DNA of 40,457 bases, taken from the NCBI GenBank assembly GCA_002457275.1, contig NTKD01000003.1:38289-78745 (forward strand), in the 5' to 3' direction. The position numbers and the translations under genes were made by a program. The DNA is from OM182 bacterium MED-G24. GTDB taxonomy: Bacteria > Pseudomonadota > Gammaproteobacteria > Pseudomonadales > Azotimanducaceae. Positions 6,529 to 23,804 of this stretch are shown in pieces. A model generated the notes under the pieces. It ran no database searches. It was given only the letters and a program-made list of their open reading frames with translations, and was not told the DNA's origin. Within the stretch, counting starts at the first letter, position 1. Each line of letters begins with the position of its first letter.

Positions 6529-7371
6529 ATGAATGATCCGGTCACAGGGCACTGCCTCTGCGGCGGCGTGTCTTTCGTGGTCACGTTTTCAACCGAAAAT
6601 GGGATTAATCTTTGTCACTGCCAGATGTGCCGAAAGCAGACCGGCACGCTGTTCTCGTCGTGGGCCATCGCTGAACGGTCCGCTTTCAGCTGGCAATCGG
6701 GAGAGGATCAGATCCAGAGCTATCCGTCATCACCCGGCCACGAACGGACATTCTGTAGCGTCTGTGGCTCCCAGGTACCTATGACCGGAGGGAATCAGGT
6801 GGCGATACCCATGGGATTACTGAACGAAGATCCCGGCATCCGACCACAACGTCATCTTTTTGCGGCGTCTGCGTACGCGGGCTACCCGATCAGCGATGAA
6901 CTTCCCCAATTTGAAGCAGCGCCTCCGGAGTGGGGCCAGCGACCCGAGCGCAGTGACGCCGGTGATACCATTCCCGGCATGATCAACGGCGGCTGCCTCT
7001 GCGGTACGCTCCGTTTCCATATCACGGCACCACCTACCAAAATCATGCACTGCCATTGCAGCCGATGTCGGAAGTCGCGGGCAAGCGCCCACGTCTCGAA
7101 TCTGTACATTGACCCGGACACGTTCGTCTGGAATGCAGGCGAGGAGAACGTGACCCTGTATACACTGACCGACACGCAACACACGATTGGTTTCTGCAAA
7201 TCGTGTGGCGCTACAGCACCTCTGGTATTCCCCGGTCTTGCGATTGTGCCGGTCGGCAATCTCGATGACGTCGTGGACGTCAGCAACGCCCCTCATATTT
7301 TCTGTGGCAGCAAGGCGCCCTGGTTTACCGTCATGGGACACGTACCACAATTCGACACAACGCCCGGCTGA
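6529..7371 (+). CDS. Tandem GFA (glutathione-dependent formaldehyde-activating/CENP-V-like) protein
   Basis: Two GFA domains are fused in 280 residues. Domain 1 (about 5-115) has the zinc ligands Cys9, Cys11, Cys29, Cys31, Cys34, Cys76 and Cys79. Domain 2 (about 152-265) repeats the set with Cys156, Cys158, Cys175, Cys177, Cys180, Cys223 and Cys226, so both halves keep complete CxC, CHCxxC and CxxC motifs. GFA proteins normally have one domain of about 120-150 residues. The prototype was described as accelerating glutathione-formaldehyde adduct formation, but most members have no proven reaction. The gene lies within the VOC/GFA/esterase/PhyH set, consistent with handling of thiol-aldehyde adducts; that is inference. 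Confidence 0.88.
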   Translation: MNDPVTGHCLCGGVSFVVTFSTENGINLCHCQMCRKQTGTLFSSWAIAERSAFSWQSGEDQIQSYPSSPGHERTFCSVCGSQVPMTGGNQVAIPMGLLNEDPGIRPQRHLFAASAYAGYPISDELPQFEAAPPEWGQRPERSDAGDTIPGMINGGCLCGTLRFHITAPPTKIMHCHCSRCRKSRASAHVSNLYIDPDTFVWNAGEENVTLYTLTDTQHTIGFCKSCGATAPLVFPGLAIVPVGNLDDVVDVSNAPHIFCGSKAPWFTVMGHVPQFDTTPG

Positions 7372-7404: not shown

Positions 7405-8616
7405 ATGAACAACATCTCTGATATTCCTTCTACACGTCCTGAAGATGTCGGCATGGGCAGTGATCGCCTACGCAACATCGGTGACCGAATGAACTGGCAT
7501 ATAGACCAGGGTAACATTCAGGGAGCCGTGACTGCGGTCGCGCGCCGCGGTCGTGTTGTTCACTTCGAGGCACACGGAGAACAGGACACAAGAGACAACA
7601 CTCCGATGCCAGAGGATGCGCTATTTCGGATGGCATCCTCGACCAAACCGGTACTTGGTGTCGCCGCCATGATGATGATCGAAGAGGGTCTGATTCGCCC
7701 TTCGAATCCGGTGTCGCGCTTTGTCCCGGAGTTCAAGGACATGCAGGTCGCCGTACTAAAGGACCCAGCCGACAAAGACATCAGTCCGAACTTCGTACAA
7801 CCCGGATCAGAGGTACCCGAACACCGTCTGGTTCCCGCGACGACAGAAATCACGATCCATCATCTGCTGACGCATACATCCGGTTTGATGAGCAGTGGCC
7901 TTGGCTCAGCATTGACTCAAAACACCAAGAACCGCCGGTCTCCGGATGCAACGCTGGCCTCCTATATCCCGACGCTTGGGGATGTTGCACTGGATTTTCA
8001 GCCAGGCAGTCGCTGGCGCTATAGCCCCGGGACCGGTCTTGACGTCGTCGCCAGGATCATCGAAATCGTCTCTGGTGTGGATTTTGATACCTTCATCCGA
8101 ACCCGCATCTTCGAACCACTACGCATGAACGACACCCACTTCAATGTCCCCGATGACAAGACAAACCGGCATGTTGCCATCAAGGACCGCGAAAAACTGC
8201 TCGAAGGTCGTGGGCCAACAAAGTATTTCTCCGCGTCTGGTGGCCTGACCAGTACCTGCCGGGATTTTCTGCATTTTGAACAGATGTTTGCTGGTGGAGG
8301 ATCGCTGTTTGGCGAACGACTGCTCAGCCCGCGCACCATTGCGATGATGACTGCCAACCAGACGGGCGACCTGTTCAAAGGGCTTTATGGCGCACAAAAC
8401 GGGATGGGATTCGGGTTCACCGTCTCCGTCGTACTCGACCCCGTGACCGCCGACAGCCGAAGAAGCAAAGGCGCCTTTGGATGGGGGGGTGCCTTTGGTA
8501 CCCAGTCCTGGACTGATCCCGGAGATGATCTGACGGCCGTGATCATGCTGCAGCAACCCCATCAGGGCGCGCAATACGACTTTGGGAATGCGGTTCAACA
8601 GGCGATCATCGGCTAG
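7405..8616 (+). CDS. Beta-lactamase-fold serine hydrolase (esterase-like)
   Basis: This 403-residue protein belongs to the class C beta-lactamase / penicillin-binding-like family (PF00144 type). The catalytic SxxK is Ser78-Ser-Thr-Lys81 (FRMASSTKPVLG). The second motif is YSPG rather than YxN, as is common in EstB-like esterases, and HHLLTHTSGL is the usual family segment before it. No signal peptide is present, which argues for a cytoplasmic esterase or lactone hydrolase rather than an antibiotic-degrading enzyme. Its start lies 33 bases after the GFA stop, preceded by AAAGGTCAAAT. It is followed at a short distance by a PhyH oxygenase gene. Confidence 0.9.
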   Translation: MNNISDIPSTRPEDVGMGSDRLRNIGDRMNWHIDQGNIQGAVTAVARRGRVVHFEAHGEQDTRDNTPMPEDALFRMASSTKPVLGVAAMMMIEEGLIRPSNPVSRFVPEFKDMQVAVLKDPADKDISPNFVQPGSEVPEHRLVPATTEITIHHLLTHTSGLMSSGLGSALTQNTKNRRSPDATLASYIPTLGDVALDFQPGSRWRYSPGTGLDVVARIIEIVSGVDFDTFIRTRIFEPLRMNDTHFNVPDDKTNRHVAIKDREKLLEGRGPTKYFSASGGLTSTCRDFLHFEQMFAGGGSLFGERLLSPRTIAMMTANQTGDLFKGLYGAQNGMGFGFTVSVVLDPVTADSRRSKGAFGWGGAFGTQSWTDPGDDLTAVIMLQQPHQGAQYDFGNAVQQAIIG

Positions 8617-8698
8617 ATCATCAAACATCGTCCAGCTTCTACAGGAATGGCCGCCTGCGGTAGGATATCCGGTGACCATCCGGAATCGACCACAGCCC

Positions 8699-9877
8699 AT
8701 GTCAGAATTCGAGAATTTCACCGTCTACAAGGACACCTCGGTCGGCTGGTGTGCGAACACCCCGGTCAACGAAACGATGGATACGGAGGGTAACCCGTCC
8801 ATCCAGATCACGGGGTTCCCCGCCAGCGATCCCCGGGCGCCGGCAGAAAGGGTTTATGACCACCCCGACGTGGAAAGATTGCGGGCCGAACTTAAGGCCA
8901 ACAACGGCATTCGAGGTGTTGACGTTTGTCTGCCCCACGAACTGGATCGCATCGAACATTGCTTTTTCCGTGACGGTTTTGTGGTCGTAACAGATCTGTT
9001 GGACCAGGACCCTCTGCAGAAATGGCGCGAAGGTTGCGCTCGTGTCCTCACCGACATCCTGAGTATACCCGGACCCGGCAATCGAAAATACATGACGGAA
9101 ACAGAACGTCTGCCTCATCGCTACAGTTACGGTACTTCATCCGCATCACGACAGATGCTGCACGATGAAGCATGGGCCTCGATGATAGACCTCCCAAACA
9201 CAACCCCAATTCTAACGAGGCTTTTTGGGGGCGAAAACTACTGCGTGAATGGTTCCGGCGGGGATCTTTGTCTGCCCGGGGCGGTCGAGTACCAGACACT
9301 GCATTCAGACCTTCGGGACAGCTACAAGATTCCAGAATCCCGGTTCGAACAGGCAGCGCGACAGAGCATCGATATTGAAGACCCGAACGACGATCGTGTT
9401 CGTGGACGCATCGTCGCAATGACACCTCCGTGTATCACGATCAATTTCCTGATGAGTGACCTGACCTGGGAGAACGGCCCGATCCGGCAGATACCGGGGA
9501 CTCACTGGTCCATCAACCCGCCACCATCACAGTCAGATGAACCCGCCTGGATGCGTTACTCGACACTGGTCGGTGCGCCTGCCGGTGCCGGTGTTTTTCG
9601 TGACAACCGCGCCTGGCATGGCGCAACGCCCAATCTCAGCAGGCAGGTTCGCGCACTGCCCAACGTCGAATACGGCGCGCCCTGGACCCGTGGACCACGT
9701 GCCAGAACCATGCCCTATGACATCTGGGAATCCCTGACGCCACATGCAAAGAGCGTATCGGAATGTGTTCGGGCTGAACCCGGAGAATGGCCCAATGGCG
9801 CGGGTGTCATGCACCCACTTGTTACCGGTAGACGTGCGGCCAACGAAAACAGTCCCGGCATCGGCCGCGCTAAGTAG
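8699..9877 (+). CDS. Phytanoyl-CoA dioxygenase (PhyH) family protein 1
   Basis: This Fe(II)/2-oxoglutarate oxygenase of about 392 residues has the facial triad His202-x-Asp204 (QTLHSDLRDSY) and distal His307 (NRAWHGATPN), with Arg315 or Arg318 placed to bind 2-oxoglutarate. Members hydroxylate lipids, quaternary amines or small metabolites. The start is uncertain: ATG at 8699 gives a natural N-terminus, while a GTG at 8672 has AGGA at a better distance. It is the last intact gene of the plus-strand set and is followed after three bases by the stop of a dead lipoprotein gene on the other strand. It is only distantly similar to the two other PhyH proteins in the window. Confidence 0.88.
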   Translation: MSEFENFTVYKDTSVGWCANTPVNETMDTEGNPSIQITGFPASDPRAPAERVYDHPDVERLRAELKANNGIRGVDVCLPHELDRIEHCFFRDGFVVVTDLLDQDPLQKWREGCARVLTDILSIPGPGNRKYMTETERLPHRYSYGTSSASRQMLHDEAWASMIDLPNTTPILTRLFGGENYCVNGSGGDLCLPGAVEYQTLHSDLRDSYKIPESRFEQAARQSIDIEDPNDDRVRGRIVAMTPPCITINFLMSDLTWENGPIRQIPGTHWSINPPPSQSDEPAWMRYSTLVGAPAGAGVFRDNRAWHGATPNLSRQVRALPNVEYGAPWTRGPRARTMPYDIWESLTPHAKSVSECVRAEPGEWPNGAGVMHPLVTGRRAANENSPGIGRAK

Positions 9878-9880
9878 CTG

Positions 9881-10450
9881 CTAGTTCTCCAGTGTATTCA
9901 CCGGGAAATCGAACACCGGGGTTGAGACAATATCCGTACGAACTCGCGCCAAAACCTGATCCGGCGCTTCGACGGTCCCGGTGCCGACCTCTGTGACATA
10001 AATCTTGCCTTCGGTAATCCCGTGGTACATGTCTACCGCCATCAGATCGACTGTCACCTACTGTGACACATCGAAGATATCCACGATGGGTATCGCGAAT
10101 CCGAACGTATCCTGGTCGGTACCCAGGAACATGAAGAACAGGTCGATGATGTAGTCCGGATCCTCATGGAAAAATGCAATCTCATATAGGCGCTACAGTT
10201 CTTTCAGTACCTAGTCGTGCGCATAGTGCAGAGAGAGATTGTCGCGAACAGCGTGGAATTAGAGTAGCACTTTTTTGCCTCTCATTGGCTCGAAAGGCTC
10301 ATCCGACAACATCCTCGCGAATTTGTGGATACTGTGAGTCACAAGCCTCTGGGCCGTCGCACCGGCGTACTCGGCGTGGGGCTGTCTGGTTGAGCACCCA
10401 GATAACGCCACCACCAAGGGTATGAGGCCCACCGGCCAGGATCTACTCAC
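9881..10450 (-). pseudogene. Dead lipoprotein gene with four in-frame stop codons (DUF6655-like)
   Basis: A single uninterrupted register of 190 codons runs from a GTG at 10450 to a TAG at 9881-9883. The GTG is preceded by AAGGAG at five bases, a strong ribosome-binding site. The first 17 residues form a lipoprotein signal with lipobox LSGC. Within the frame are TAA at 10259-10261 and TAG at 10211-10213, 10193-10195 and 10058-10060. Between them the sequence stays protein-like: MRGKKVLL, FHAVRDNLSLHY, DPDYIIDLFFMFLGTDQ, then a C-terminal part with MYHGITEGKIYV. No indel is needed anywhere. From memory, the RGKKV and DYxxxxxxxxLGTD pattern recalls DUF6655-type lipoproteins; a profile search would settle this. 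It is convergent with the preceding PhyH gene. Confidence 0.75.
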
Positions 10451-10657
10451 ATTCACTCCTTTCCCAGTCCCACCGAAGGTTCTGACGTTGCCTGGATTTC
10501 AGGCCACAGACTATATCGAATTCCACGGACCAGTTCTTCGTTCTCCCCGGCGCAACCGCTCGCGCTACCTCTCCCCACGACCAATTGTGTACACTGCCGC
10601 ATCCTCACTGAACGAACCTGATCGGAACGCGGTCTAAGCCAGTGGCGAGTCGACGTA
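10451..10657. other. Divergent upstream region without a gene
   Basis: This 207-base spacer separates the dead lipoprotein gene (minus) from the cyclophilin lipoprotein gene (plus), so it should hold both promoters. I see no convincing -35/-10 pair. The open frame on the plus strand through it shows no protein-like features. Confidence 0.4.
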
Positions 10658-12157
10658 ATGGAACAGAACTTGGTCAACATGAAATACCCAGGGCTAGCAA
10701 TCCTCACCATCTGGACACTCGTGTCCTGTAGCAGCGACAATCCGACGCCAACTGAGCCGTTCGTCTCAGATGGTGCAGCGAATGCGGGACCGGTCATCAG
10801 CATCGAAGCAGTCCGATACGTCATTGCCGGCGACGATGTAACCATCACAGCCACCGCGACCGACCCTGATGGTACTGTCACCTCGAGGATCTGGTCTCAG
10901 ATTGAAGGCGAATCAGTCGCACTCACAGACGACGGTACCGGTCTTGGGACCTTTGCAGCACCCGCGGTAACAACCATCAGTAACCTGGATTTCGCATTCT
11001 CGGCCACTGACGACGATGGACTCGAGGGTGGGCGAGTGATCACGGTTACTGTACTTCCTCAAGACCTTCTTCAGGCTCGCATGGGTGTACTCACAGGTGC
11101 AGATGTCGCGGCCGTCCGTACGACAAACCCCGGTGAAGTGATCGAGTCAACCACCACCAGCAAAGCATCAGACGTTACAACGGGCGGTACCTTTTCACTT
11201 CGCCTGAATGATATTGATGACGAAGAGTGGGTTCTGGTGTCTGTCTCAGGCGGCACCGATATCGACGTCGATAACGATGGCGTCGTCGACGCGGCACCCA
11301 CGGACAACAATGGCACCCTGCGAGCCCTCGCTAGAGCCGCAGATTGGCGGTCGCCGGGATTGACCGTCACACCGCTTAGCGAAATTAGCGTCCAGCATCT
11401 GCTGAGCGTCTCTGGCAGCATTGAGACAATTTCACCACAAAGCATGGAAATGCGCCTCAGCACCATTGTCTGGGAGCTACTGTCTGCTGATGTGAGTGAA
11501 GACGACACGTTCGACTACCTCGATATTACTTCCTACCAGCCGGAAGACAGCGGCATACTCAACAGCGAAACCCTGTCAGTCGCGGATCTCGAATCAATCG
11601 CAGCCGACCTTCGTAGCGCGGACGCCGCGTCCGCGGGAGCCGCCATCTCCGCGCTTCTCGCGTTTGACAGTTTCGCGATCGTCGAGACAAACCTGGGTAC
11701 GTTCAAAGTAGAACTGTTTCCAAATGTTGTTCCGGATACAGCAGGCAATTTCATGACACTCAGTCGTCGCGGCTACTACGACGATCTGATTTTCCATCGC
11801 ATCGTCGAGGGGTTTGTCATGCAGGGCGGCGATCCGTTTGCAAACGGCACAGGTGGCGCGAGCATGGTGGACGATCCCTTTGGCGACGAGTTCGATGCTT
11901 CCCTCAGCAACGTACAGTACTCTCTCGCTATGGCAAACTCTGGTCCGAACACGAATAAATCTCAGTTTTTCGTCAATCTTGCAGACAACACCAACCTGGA
12001 CTTTGATAAGTCTCCCCTCACATCCGCTCACTCTGTTTTTGGCCAGGTCGTTGAAGGGCAAAGCGTCATTGATGAGATCGGTTTGGTGGAAGTTGGCGCC
12101 AATAACCTTCCAGTGTCTTCGGTTCGTATGCAGTCCGTCACAATTACCCGCAAATAA
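10658..12157 (+). CDS. Lipoprotein with PKD-like domain and C-terminal cyclophilin-type peptidyl-prolyl isomerase
   Basis: The protein has 499 residues. The N-terminus carries a lipoprotein signal ending in LVSC; an ATG at 10679 (MKYPG...) would give a more typical signal than the ATG at 10658. Residues about 40-130 resemble an immunoglobulin/PKD-like beta domain (TATATDPDGTVTS, FSATDDDGL). The middle 200 residues are unassigned. Residues about 345-499 are a cyclophilin domain with the active-site pattern FHRIVEGFVMQGGD, then ANSGPNTNKSQFF and a HSVFGQVVEG end. It probably assists proline-limited folding of envelope proteins. The fused lipoprotein is unusual because periplasmic cyclophilins are typically about 170-190 residues. 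Confidence 0.88.
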   Translation: MEQNLVNMKYPGLAILTIWTLVSCSSDNPTPTEPFVSDGAANAGPVISIEAVRYVIAGDDVTITATATDPDGTVTSRIWSQIEGESVALTDDGTGLGTFAAPAVTTISNLDFAFSATDDDGLEGGRVITVTVLPQDLLQARMGVLTGADVAAVRTTNPGEVIESTTTSKASDVTTGGTFSLRLNDIDDEEWVLVSVSGGTDIDVDNDGVVDAAPTDNNGTLRALARAADWRSPGLTVTPLSEISVQHLLSVSGSIETISPQSMEMRLSTIVWELLSADVSEDDTFDYLDITSYQPEDSGILNSETLSVADLESIAADLRSADAASAGAAISALLAFDSFAIVETNLGTFKVELFPNVVPDTAGNFMTLSRRGYYDDLIFHRIVEGFVMQGGDPFANGTGGASMVDDPFGDEFDASLSNVQYSLAMANSGPNTNKSQFFVNLADNTNLDFDKSPLTSAHSVFGQVVEGQSVIDEIGLVEVGANNLPVSSVRMQSVTITRK

Positions 12158-12158
12158 C

Positions 12159-12860
12159 CGCGCACGATCTGTTGTCTCAGGTTACAGCGTACCGCTGTTC
12201 TGCGCAGGACTCGCAATCGCACAACGCGGCCTTGCTTACGAAGCCCAGTCTGACAGACACGCACTGATCATCGGCAACAGCGCCTACACACTGGCGCCTC
12301 TGGAAAATCCCACCAACGACGCATCCGACCTCGCCAGGAAGTTTCGAAAAATGAAGTACAACGTGACCGTTGTGCAGGACCAGGGTGGTGATGATCTGGC
12401 ACGCACCGTCGAGACATTCTACGAAAGCGTTACGGGGACTGACCCGATTACGGTTTTCTATTATGCCGGACATGCTGTCCAGGTAGACGGTGTGAACTAT
12501 CTACTCCCCGTCGACAAGGAGATCTACACCGTGGAGGCGCTGGTGCGAAATGGGTATTCGCTGAACAGGTTGCTCCTCGCCATGAAGGACGCAGTATCAG
12601 AACAGAATGTGATTATTCTTGATGCCTGTCGTAACAATCCACTGGAAGCAGAGATGCTCTCGAGCGATGGTCGCGGTGTACAAATCAGCGCGGGCAATGC
12701 AGCAACTCGGCAGATGGCACAACAGGTTCGTCAGGAACTTCGTGCCGGTCTGGCGCAGGTTAAAGCGCCGCCGGGGACGCTGGAGCATTCCTCACTGCTG
12801 GAACCCTTCTACTTCAGGCAGCCACGCAACCAGGGTATACCCGATATTGTCACCTTCTGA
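12159..12860 (+). pseudogene. Caspase-like (peptidase C14) protein, lacking a start and truncated
   Basis: The frame encodes a signal-peptide-like stretch (VPLFCAGLAIAQ...LAYEAQS) followed by the N-terminal half of a caspase-fold domain: RHALIIGNSAY, LENPTNDASDLA, the catalytic His in YYAGHAVQ, NYLLPVD, and the catalytic Cys in ILDACRNNP. No ATG, GTG or TTG occurs in this frame between the preceding gene's stop and the domain. After GLAQVKAPPGTL, where such proteins normally continue with a conserved strand and the rest of the protease fold, the sequence switches to about 25 unrelated-looking residues and stops. I read this as a gene that lost its start and an internal or 3' segment. A non-canonical start or a fusion with the preceding gene is possible but less likely. 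Confidence 0.6.
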
Positions 12861-15401: not shown

Positions 15402-16409
15402 ATGGCAACCCGCATTGCGATTAACGGATTTGGCCGAATGGGACGGCTGGCACTGCGCGCAGCCTGGGCCTGGCCGGAACTCGAAATTGCACATATCAAC
15501 GAGATCGCAGGGAATGCAGCGGGTGCCGCGCACCTGTTGCAGTTCGACTCCATTCACGGCACCTGGACTACACCTGTAGATTCCGACACCGATGCTGTCA
15601 TCGTCGACGGTCAGCGGATCTCATATTCATCGAACGAGCACCTTGAAGACACCCCCTGGGGTGACCTCGGCATCGACATTGCCGTTGAATGTACAGGAAA
15701 ATTCAAATCCAGCGACGCTCTATCACCCTACCTGGACAACAATGTCAGCAAGATCGTGGTTTCCGCGCCAGTCAAAGATGGCACTCTTAACATTGTTGTT
15801 GGCGTCAATGACAACCTCTACCAGCCGGAAGTCCATGACATCGTTACCGCTGCATCCTGCACTACGAATTGCATCGCACCGGTTATCAGCGTCATCCATG
15901 AGCAGTTTGGTATCCGACACGGATCCATCACAACCATCCACGACATCACCAATACCCAGAGCGTACTCGACGAATATCACAAAGACCTCCGACGCGCTCG
16001 CGCCAGCGGAATGTCGTTAATTCCCACTTCAACGGGGTCTGCGACGGCCATCGCAGAGATCTTCCCGGAGTTACGTGGAAAGATCGACGGCCTGGCGGTC
16101 AGGGTTCCCCTGGCAAACGCATCGGTGACCGATTGTGTATTCGAGGTGGAACAACCGACAACAGAAGCTGCCGTCAACCAGGCACTGAAGGACGCCGCAA
16201 CCGGCAGACTGACCGGTATTTTGGGATTCGAAGACCGCCCCCTAGTGTCAGCAGACTTCAGAGGGGATAAACGTTCGAGCATTGTCGACGCCGACTCCAC
16301 GATGGTCATCGACGACACCCAGGTCAAAATACTTGCGTGGTATGACAACGAGATCGGCTACGTCAATCGGATGATGGAACTGGTTCGCAAAGTCGCAGAA
16401 TCCCTCTGA
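15402..16409 (+). CDS. ArsJ-associated glyceraldehyde-3-phosphate dehydrogenase
   Basis: This 335-residue GAPDH has the Rossmann motif INGFGRMGR (7-15), catalytic Cys153 in SCTTNC, catalytic His180 (TTIHDITN) and the C-terminal [12 protein letters not shown] lies eight bases before the ATG. It ends two bases before arsJ; this adjacency is diagnostic of the arsenate pathway in which GAPDH uses arsenate instead of phosphate to form 1-arseno-3-phosphoglycerate, which ArsJ exports. The position after strand 2 reads NEI rather than the usual Asp of glycolytic NAD-specific enzymes, in keeping with a specialised paralogue; that reading is inference. No arsR-like regulator is present within several kb. 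Confidence 0.92.
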
Positions 16410-16411
16410 CC

Positions 16412-17620
16412 ATGCGCCAATATGCCATCATCACAGGGAGTTACTGGGCGTTCACGCTGACCGACGGCGCTCTCAGAATGCTGGTGGTGCTGTATTTCCA
16501 CCAACTGGGGTACAGTCCTCTCGACATTGCTTTGCTGTTTCTCTTCTACGAACTCTTCGGCGTTGTAACCAACCTGTTCGGCGGCTGGATTGCCGCGAGG
16601 GTAGGCCTTGCAGCGACCCTCATCGGTGGCCTGGTTCTTCAGGTTGGTGCGTTGTCGATGCTCCTGGTCGACGACACTTACTTGACGGTCGCCTACGTGA
16701 TGGTCGCTCAGGCACTGTCGGGCGTTGCCAAAGATCTCAACAAGATGAGTGCCAAGAGCAGCGTCAAGCTCATTGCAGGTGATAGTGAAGGCCGCCTGTA
16801 CCGATGGGTTGCAGCGCTCACGGGATCAAAAAATGCGCTTAAGGGAATAGGCTTTTTCCTGGGCGGTGCACTCCTCTCCACCGTCGGATTCGGCAATGCC
16901 GTTGGGGGTATGGCCATCATGCTGGGAGTCATCGCCGTCTCTACCTTTTTTCTATTGGACAGAGATCTCGGCAAGGCGACGTTCAAACCAAAGTTCAATG
17001 ACCTTGTGTCCAAAAGCCCCCGAATCAACTGCCTGTCAGCCGCCAGACTTTTCCTGTTCGGATCTCGCGACGTGTGGTTTGTCGTAGCTCTGCCTGTATT
17101 TCTGCAGTTGGAACTCGGGTGGTCAAGCGTCGCAGTGGGCACGCTACTGGCAGTCTGGGTGGTGGGTTATGGCGTCATCCAGGCCTTTTCACCGAGCATT
17201 ACGGGCTCGCACCACGGGCACCCCCCGGACGGTGGCACTGCCGTCAAATGGGGAACCGTGCTCACCGGCTTGCCTTTGCTGATTGCCGGATCGTTTTTGC
17301 TTGATGTGGACCCGGAATGGGCTGTTGTCGTGGGGCTGATCATTTTTGGCGCGGTCTTCGCCATCAATTCTTCCGTGCATTCTTATCTGATCATTTCGTA
17401 TGCAGAGTCAGACGGCGTGTCACTGGACGTGGGTTTCTACTACATGTCGAATGCCGCGGGACGGCTCGTTGGCACCATGTGTTCAGGTTGGGTTTACCAG
17501 GTATGGGGATTCCAGGCATGCCTTCTCGTGTCGGCCGGTTTCGTAGCGGCCGCAACCTTTATATCAATGGAGTTACCCAAAGGATCACAAGCGCTTGAAC
17601 CTGGCTCAGGCAACCGGTAG
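16412..17620 (+). CDS. arsJ: ArsJ organoarsenical efflux permease (MFS)
   Basis: This major-facilitator protein of 402 residues has about 11-12 hydrophobic helices. The segment QALSGVAKDLNKMSAKSSVK (about 109-128), followed by GSKNALKGIGFFLGG, is the signature I associate with ArsJ. ArsJ exports 1-arseno-3-phosphoglycerate made by the adjacent GAPDH; the compound then breaks down outside the cell to arsenate and 3-phosphoglycerate, giving arsenate resistance without arsenate reductase. The start is two bases after the GAPDH stop, so the two are translated from one mRNA. The 3' end is convergent with the second PhyH gene 34 bases away. Confidence 0.93.
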   Translation: MRQYAIITGSYWAFTLTDGALRMLVVLYFHQLGYSPLDIALLFLFYELFGVVTNLFGGWIAARVGLAATLIGGLVLQVGALSMLLVDDTYLTVAYVMVAQALSGVAKDLNKMSAKSSVKLIAGDSEGRLYRWVAALTGSKNALKGIGFFLGGALLSTVGFGNAVGGMAIMLGVIAVSTFFLLDRDLGKATFKPKFNDLVSKSPRINCLSAARLFLFGSRDVWFVVALPVFLQLELGWSSVAVGTLLAVWVVGYGVIQAFSPSITGSHHGHPPDGGTAVKWGTVLTGLPLLIAGSFLLDVDPEWAVVVGLIIFGAVFAINSSVHSYLIISYAESDGVSLDVGFYYMSNAAGRLVGTMCSGWVYQVWGFQACLLVSAGFVAAATFISMELPKGSQALEPGSGNR

Positions 17621-21870: not shown

Positions 21871-22046
21871 CTGTAGATACCTCTTTCAGGCTCCAGCGCC
21901 TGTTCTTTTGAATCGTTTTCGTGCCCGGAAACCTACTCCAGCCCTGTTCCAGAGTAAAGACGGTGTTGACTCGCCACACACCTGCTTGTGAACCAGAGGC
22001 GCCTGAGGTATGCCTAACGGTCACGAGATATGCTCATGGAACCTTC

Positions 22047-22729
22047 ATGAAATCACAACAAAAGCTGCTATCGGTAGTGGTCGCCGGCCTCGGTCTGGTC
22101 ACATCCAACGCTATGCTGAGCGTCAGCAGCGGCGGCAGTATGGGTGGCGGTAGTATGCCGTGGGCGTCCGCACCTCAGGAAACACCGCGCGAAAAGGCCG
22201 TTGATAGCTACAACCAGGGCATACGGTATCGTGATAAGGCATGGTCGTTGGCAGAGGACCTTGGCAGTGCCTCTTCTGACAAGGCGCGAAGCCGTCTCGA
22301 ACGAGAAATCGCCAAACAGCACAAAACATCAGCCATCATTTCCAGCGCGCCATCTCTGAAGTATCCGAGTTCCCCGAAGCCCATGCAGGCCTGGGTTATG
22401 CAATGCGTCAAACTTGAGACCTGAGAGGCTCGCTTGCAGCCTACAACGAAGCCATTCGGTTAAGGCCCAACTGCCCTGAAGCGATCGAATATCGTGCAGA
22501 AACCTACCTCGCGATGGGACGGGTCGAGGACATGCGAGAAGCCTACAAGCGGCTGCTAACGCTGGACAAGGCAACCGCTGCCAAACTGATAGATGCCGTC
22601 CGCACGTTTATCGACAATCCTCCAGAGGATTATCCGTCAAAGACCCTGAAGAGGCCGGCCAACTCGGCCGAGGAACGATCAACCCTGGCAAAGGTCACGG
22701 GAGCCGAGGGTACTGACAACCGCTGGTAG
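22047..22729 (+). pseudogene. TPR-repeat protein, disrupted by a frameshift and a nonsense codon
   Basis: The gene starts at the ATG at 22047 with a signal peptide (MKSQQKLLSVVVAGLGLV), a Gly/Ser-rich stretch and a helical segment KAVDSYNQGIRYRDKAW. At about 22313-22335 the protein-like sequence moves to another frame, continuing FQRAISEVSEFPEAHAGLGYAMRQT, then a TGA at 22415-22417, then DLRGSLAAYNEAIRLRPNCPEAIEYRAETYLAMGRV up to the TAG at 22727-22729. The last part is a clear tetratricopeptide repeat (xAYNEAIRL, AIEYRAETYLAMGR). The TGA stands where family members usually have Gly (QTGD), so GGA to TGA is likely. Two independent lesions make this a pseudogene. Confidence 0.75.
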
Positions 22730-22775
22730 CTGGTCCGTTGGTCGACGTGTCCCAGGGCCCGACAGTATTCCAGCC

Positions 22776-23748
22776 TTGCAGGGCGTAGCCATCGGCACCC
22801 ACGTACGGGACATCTTCCTGTACACCGCACTATTACTGATCACGGCCCAGGATAGTCCGGCTTCCGATACCTAGACACTCGAGCGATTCGGACGCCACCT
22901 GTTCTACGATCGTGCGCTCTCCTACAATGAGCAGATCGCTTGTGCGGACTGTCATCAACAGTCATTCGGATTCGCCGATTCCCAGGCCTTCTCCAGGGGG
23001 GCCGATGGGAAGCCACTGTCGCGGCATACGATGGCGCTGATTAACCTTGAAAGCCGGAATCACTATGGATGGGCCGACAGCTCAAAAGGTACGTTGGCCG
23101 ATCAAATGCTACGGCCGTTGTTCAATGCCGGTCCGGTAGAGATGTGCTGGCTTGATTACGAGCAGGCGATCCTTTCACGACTGGATAACCGAAACCTCTA
23201 TCGTCACGCCAGAGAAACTCTGTTTCCCGATGTACAGGTATTGGCGCGATCACACGTCGTTGAGTCGATTGTCACCTTCGAAAACACACTCGTCTCGCGT
23301 CAGTCTGACTTTGACGAGTGGCTCGAGAACGACAAGCGTCCTGACGATGCGGTGATCCTGTGGTTTCGACTCTTCGCTTCTGAACGATTGGGATGCAGTC
23401 GTTGTCACAACGGCCCCGACCATGGGTGGCCATGGCTACGCCAATACCGGTCTCCGTGGCCAGGACATGCGGTTGGCAGTACATGCCGGTCTGGAACAGG
23501 ACCAGCGGCGATTTCTTGTGCCCACACTCAGAAATATTGCCGCGACAGCGCCCTACATGTATGAAGGTCGTTTTGACACACTTTTGAAGGTCATCGCGTT
23601 CTATGCGACGGGCCCCGCGCCCGATCGCGGGCTTCATGCATTTCATCTGACGCCCGAGGACACCGCCGCAATCATCGCCTTCTTCCACAGCCTCACCGAT
23701 ATCCGGCTCCTGACCAATCCCGAATTGGGTCCACCCGAAACCACGTGA
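22776..23748 (+). pseudogene. Di-haem cytochrome c peroxidase (MauG/MbnH-like), disrupted
   Basis: The sequence reads as a di-haem peroxidase in two frames. Frame one has a hydrophobic leader (FLYTALLLITAQ), an in-frame TAG at 22872-22874, then LERFGRHLFYDRALS, first haem site CADCH, FADSQAFSRGADG, LADQMLRPLF...PVEMC (usually PVEMG), and second haem site CSRCHNGPD. At about 23421 the frame shifts by one, continuing GHGYANTGLRG, RRFLVPTLRNIAATAPYMYEGRF and a C-terminal FHLTPEDTAAIIAFFHSLTD, ending with TGA at 23746-23748. The start is uncertain. Intact relatives are periplasmic enzymes that reduce peroxide or oxidize peptide Trp residues. A nonsense codon plus an indel indicate a pseudogene. 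Confidence 0.8.
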
Positions 23749-23804
23749 CTCACGGGCGGAAACTCGTGCAAACTCAGCCCAGAAAGCACGCTAAGGTAAA
23801 CAGC

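Follow-up and report, generated by a model that had tools for sequence, protein, structure and literature searches.

A lipoprotein gene that stays in one reading frame from start to end, and yet is crossed by four in-frame stop codons, raises the question of whether it has been inactivated by point mutations alone or whether its stop codons are read as amino acids. The gene lies in the 40,457-nucleotide stretch of DNA analyzed here (hereafter, the window), which belongs to an assembly of 86 contigs, 2.09 Mb, and 85% completeness. A single match to the gene was obtained in this assembly, with no second copy.

Results

The interrupted frame and its start signals

The frame runs on the minus strand from position 10450 down to 9881 and comprises 189 codons and a stop. 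A plus-strand reading of 9881-10450 was tried and rejected because it contains six stops. The gene, its signals, and its two neighbors are as follows.

9881..10450, minus strand: decayed lipoprotein gene with a GTG start, supported by the frame as read and by sequence and profile matches to relatives
10456..10462, minus strand: Shine-Dalgarno-like AAAGGAG, 5 bases ahead of the GTG, read directly from the sequence
10394..10450, minus strand: signal peptide with the terminal lipobox LSGC (Cys19), read from the sequence
10259..10261, minus strand: premature TAA, codon 64, read from the sequence
10211..10213, minus strand: premature TAG, codon 80, read from the sequence at a place that is arginine in most aligned intact relatives
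10193..10195, minus strand: premature TAG, codon 86, read from the sequence
10058..10060, minus strand: premature TAG, codon 131, read from the sequence
9881..9883, minus strand: terminal TAG, codon 190, read from the sequence
8582..9877, plus strand: PhyH-type dioxygenase gene, adjoining the lipoprotein gene here and in the congener
10658..12157, plus strand: cyclophilin-type isomerase gene with a weak PKD-like match, adjoining the lipoprotein gene here and in the congener

The sequence-only reading had described four in-frame stops (one TAA and three TAG) without a frameshift between 9881 and 10450, together with an intact ribosome-binding site and signal peptide; it did not name the strand, and each of these statements was borne out. 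The start GTG, the Shine-Dalgarno-like site, and the lipobox are all intact, and the frame ends at the same place as in intact relatives (NTLEN* in the window copy versus NTMD* and NTLD*). When compared with six intact relatives and with the core of the congener copy, the window copy has no private gap in the body of the protein, and the two-residue gap that it shows in the alignment with the six intact relatives is also present in the congener.

Two other regions of the window drew attention in their own right. The C-terminal part of a caspase-domain (Peptidase_C14) gene at 12150-12860 on the plus strand looks cut short, with the ORF at 11814-12860 matching positions 2 to 137 of the 233 in the Peptidase_C14 profile. 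At 21921-23760, also on the plus strand, a TPR-like gene and a MauG-like gene (di-haem peroxidase match), both decayed, adjoin each other.

Relatives of the lipoprotein

Relatives were sought with a read-through query, namely the window protein with X at each stop. Among 38 related genomes, three matched: the window's own, one congener (54% identity, E 3.3e-52), and one from another family of the same order (39% identity, E 5.3e-37). A profile built with this last copy recovered five further copies (E 4e-37 to 1e-56). Judged by these sequence matches, the frame is a real gene, because its read-through product matches the copy from the other family and the profile finds five more. The profile search covered 390 genomes of the order and found seven copies, comprising the window's own and six stop-free copies in five other families, with the congener absent from the matches listed. 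Among 369 genomes searched at the level of the class, two copies turned up, one of them the window's own and the other free of stops. Within the host's taxonomic family, only two of 206 genomes gave a match, and these represent two species of one genus. Plasmid and phage records contained no match to the gene, and a pattern search of genome contigs with the window protein alone returned 41 stretches, none of which was a relative.

A broader scan at one genome per species (84,980 species), which detects only copies keeping the conserved motif and which badly decayed copies may escape, yielded 46 loci; judged by the record titles, these belong mostly to Gammaproteobacteria and Desulfobacterota relatives. 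Among the 46, 44 are full-length with no internal stop, the remaining two being truncated (L085) or only partly shown (L086), and three apparent stops proved to lie upstream of the start codon. Set against these 44 stop-free relatives, the window frame is disrupted by its four premature stops. Three alignments were used: A3, with seven rows (six intact relatives and the window read-through); A4, with 43 of the 46 loci, leaving out L073 (start choice failed) as well as L085 and L086; and A5, with 34 rows of A4 plus the window protein after near-duplicates were removed by hand. Twelve residues are invariant across the 43 aligned members of this family (L041 to L084), the lipobox cysteine included.

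The family was not recognized by the domain libraries. Pfam and NCBIfam identified no family in the read-through protein, Pfam identified none in the seven rows of A3, and for the 43 rows of A4 Pfam gave no convincing model, weak matches of one to three members being set aside. No conserved neighborhood that could serve as a clue to function emerged from the 405 ORFs around the 46 loci: aside from the gene itself, the commonest neighbor cluster occurs at nine loci without a fixed place, and gene order is common mainly to Catenovulum and one Alteromonadaceae MAG, and also to a few pairs of loci.

The copy in the congener

In the congener, the lipoprotein gene is flanked by the dioxygenase and isomerase genes, as it is in the window. 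It carries gaps of 1, 8, and 1 bases within the gene, one of these frameshifting gaps falling in the signal-peptide region; an insertion of 2 bases is placed at the start codon by an alignment that is uncertain there. The TGA listed for this copy is out of phase and results from its first gap. At the window's four stop places the congener has sense codons (cysteine at codon 80 and glutamine at the other three), and the two copies have no lesion in common.

Divergence between the two copies in the core is.238,.171, and.551 at first, second, and third codon positions. Because the differences favor third positions, the gene seems to have remained under constraint over most of the period in which the two species diverged. 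The ratio of first-and-second to third positions is.37 in the core, which falls within the range of 19 neighboring genes (.08 to.39); as these neighbors are open, the ratio does not by itself show relaxed constraint. Differences at second positions cluster in codons 64 to 110 (15 of 47, versus 9 of 87 in the rest of the core), a segment that also holds three of the four stops. A C-to-T bias had been proposed as a check; no overall bias was seen in the unpolarized comparison of the two copies (27 C-to-T versus 26 T-to-C differences), and an overall C-to-T burst was rejected on this count, although glutamine stands in the congener at three of the four stops.

Apart from the lipoprotein gene, the congener's otherwise collinear contig gave no tblastn match (E 1e-8) to two plus-strand segments of the window, a GAPDH-like gene and the MFS gene that follows it at 15402-17620, and a GFA-family gene at 6529-7371.

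Conserved positions and types of lesion

The read-through protein is better preserved than four nonsense lesions would predict. At the 90% conservation level, 2 of 25 columns are changed in the window copy, as compared with 0 to 4 in the intact members. At the 80% level, 8 of 34 columns are changed, the codon-80 stop and the GTG start being counted among them, as compared with 0 to 7 in the 34 intact members. Counted on six relatives, the window copy keeps 35 of 52 columns; for the core the figure is 22 of 35, exactly as many as in the broken congener.

Decay of this kind, by point mutation only, had been called notable in the sequence-only reading. Indels are indeed absent here, but the word proved too strong when four other decayed genes of the genome were considered. 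These carry five nonsense and five frameshift lesions in total, with both kinds in each gene: one of each in the TPR-like gene, one of each in the MauG-like gene, two of each in the ABC copy on contig C26, and one of each in the ABC copy on C44. The lesions were tallied by hand from the frames, with no intact orthologues alongside, and the four genes had been noticed for their stops or broken frames and are not a fair sample; on this footing, the contrast with the four nonsense and zero frameshift lesions of the lipoprotein gene gives a one-sided Fisher P of 0.13. When the congener was added as zero nonsense and three frameshift lesions, its 2-base insertion at the start codon left out, P was 0.053. 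Under a simple neutral model with assumed rates of 0.05 to 0.2 indels per substitution, a gene with four stops would have escaped every indel with a probability no higher than 0.016, the lowest value being printed as 0.0. The same model, which does not count the four stop codons as targets, puts the probability of at most 2 changes in the 25 conserved columns at 0.006 to 0.03. Since the gene was chosen for its odd looks, the surprise expressed by these figures is inflated. Decay by stops alone is mildly unusual, and we interpret the locus as a young pseudogene in which the combination of lesions owes something to luck.

Predicted fold

An AlphaFold2 model of one intact relative, L041, was obtained with a mean pLDDT of 89.1. 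Its best structural match is the C-terminal domain of LpoB (Z 9.9, rmsd 2.6, 101 of 135 residues), a match to be regarded as moderate given that, according to the tool's own note, best Z values of 7 to 8 are common. Foldseek aligned L041 with LpoB at E 9.9e-4, with TM-scores of only 0.33 and 0.46. Structural matches at lower Z were a THUMP domain (7.6), PelC, TraT, CsgG, and LptE. The family profile found nothing among the PDB sequences at E up to 1.

LpoB is an outer-membrane lipoprotein that activates PBP1B. The family resembles it in being a lipoprotein and in the predicted fold of L041, but differs in its sequence, which is 13% identical between LpoB and L041 and finds no PDB match, and in the low TM-scores. 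An intact family member is predicted to have a fold that somewhat resembles that of LpoB. Because an LpoB-like predicted fold is combined with a lipobox, the lost product may tentatively be pictured as a membrane-anchored adaptor that probably faced the periplasm, as LpoB does.

Discussion

We regard the locus, with a probability of roughly 0.92, as a pseudogene, inactivated fairly recently and separately in each of the two species, whose lipoprotein family is uncatalogued and has a predicted fold resembling that of LpoB. Its occurrence at the same place in both species of the genus suggests that their common ancestor already had the gene, and the excess of third-position differences is consistent with purifying selection during most of the time after the split. 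Function would then have been lost separately, through nonsense mutations in the window species and frameshifting gaps in the congener, the lesions seen in each copy being its own. Translation in the window species would end at codon 64 and give a truncated lipoprotein of at most 63 residues, and the absence of indels may be put down to chance in a young pseudogene. In its premature stops, in the damage at some conserved sites, and in having a broken orthologue in the congener, the gene resembles bacterial pseudogenes of the kind that PGAP or Pseudofinder reports. It differs in carrying nonsense lesions only, with no frameshift, whereas both types of lesion occur in each of the four other decayed genes of this genome.

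Errors of sequencing or assembly, or a mixture of strains, might have introduced the stops into an intact gene. The fragmented and incomplete assembly leaves some room for this explanation, and one paper (PMC11017572) states that pseudogenes can be sequencing or assembly artefacts and that their number varies with the assembler. However, four stop-making errors in 570 bases next to open genes would be extreme, and missense changes at conserved sites are also present. Because the congener lost the gene independently, we consider an artefact quite improbable.

The reading of UAG and UAA as an amino acid, perhaps glutamine, with the full lipoprotein being made, would account for a frame that is open over 189 codons apart from its stops, for highly conserved residues that are mostly retained (23 of 25 columns), and for the glutamines of the congener. 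The genome nevertheless argues against it. TAG terminates 9 of the 26 main ORFs of the window, and the genome has two open release-factor genes: the first, immediately following a hemA-like gene, encodes 361 residues with a PET motif, and the second encodes 351 residues with an SPF motif. By these motifs, we take the former to be RF1 and the latter RF2. None of the 27 tRNAs found in this 85% complete assembly has a stop anticodon. Internal stops were absent from 30 SDR and 9 AMP-binding matches and from the best 34 of 44 ABC ATPase matches; among the 44, one has two TAG and one a TGA, and both of these copies are also frameshifted. They are the decayed ABC transporter ATPase genes of the tally above (L092 on contig C26 and L093 on C44).

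The relatives point the same way. At the place of codon 80, 28 of 34 relatives have arginine, and the congener's copy is broken too. Stops at the same places in homologues would have spoken for recoding, and none were found: all four places are sense codons in the congener and in the 34 intact relatives that were aligned. The earlier preference for point-mutation decay without recoding is upheld by these codons and by the indel-broken state of the congener copy. In this genome, TAG seems to function as a stop, in agreement with the earlier statement that it is a real stop and that reassignment is unsupported. Given RF1 and RF2, the nine TAG-terminated ORFs, and the lack of a stop reader among the 27 tRNAs found in the incomplete assembly, recoding is unsupported, and we give it hardly any credence.

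Equally little can be said for the idea that the first 63 residues still act as a short lipoprotein and the remainder is a dead remnant: the start, ribosome-binding site, signal peptide, and lipobox that it would require are intact, but the congener has a frameshifting gap in the signal-peptide region, and no such short form occurs among the 44 full-length relatives. It is just as hard to believe that low-level suppression of UAG and UAA yields some full-length lipoprotein, with selection acting against indels and against most changes at conserved positions.

The inactivated lipoprotein gene thus looks like an ordinary pseudogene rather than a case of stop codons being read in a novel manner. 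Its importance as such is slight; it illustrates how two species of the same genus have lost one lipoprotein gene in parallel. The analysis also reveals a lipoprotein family for which Pfam and NCBIfam, in the versions searched, contain no convincing model and whose predicted fold is LpoB-like.
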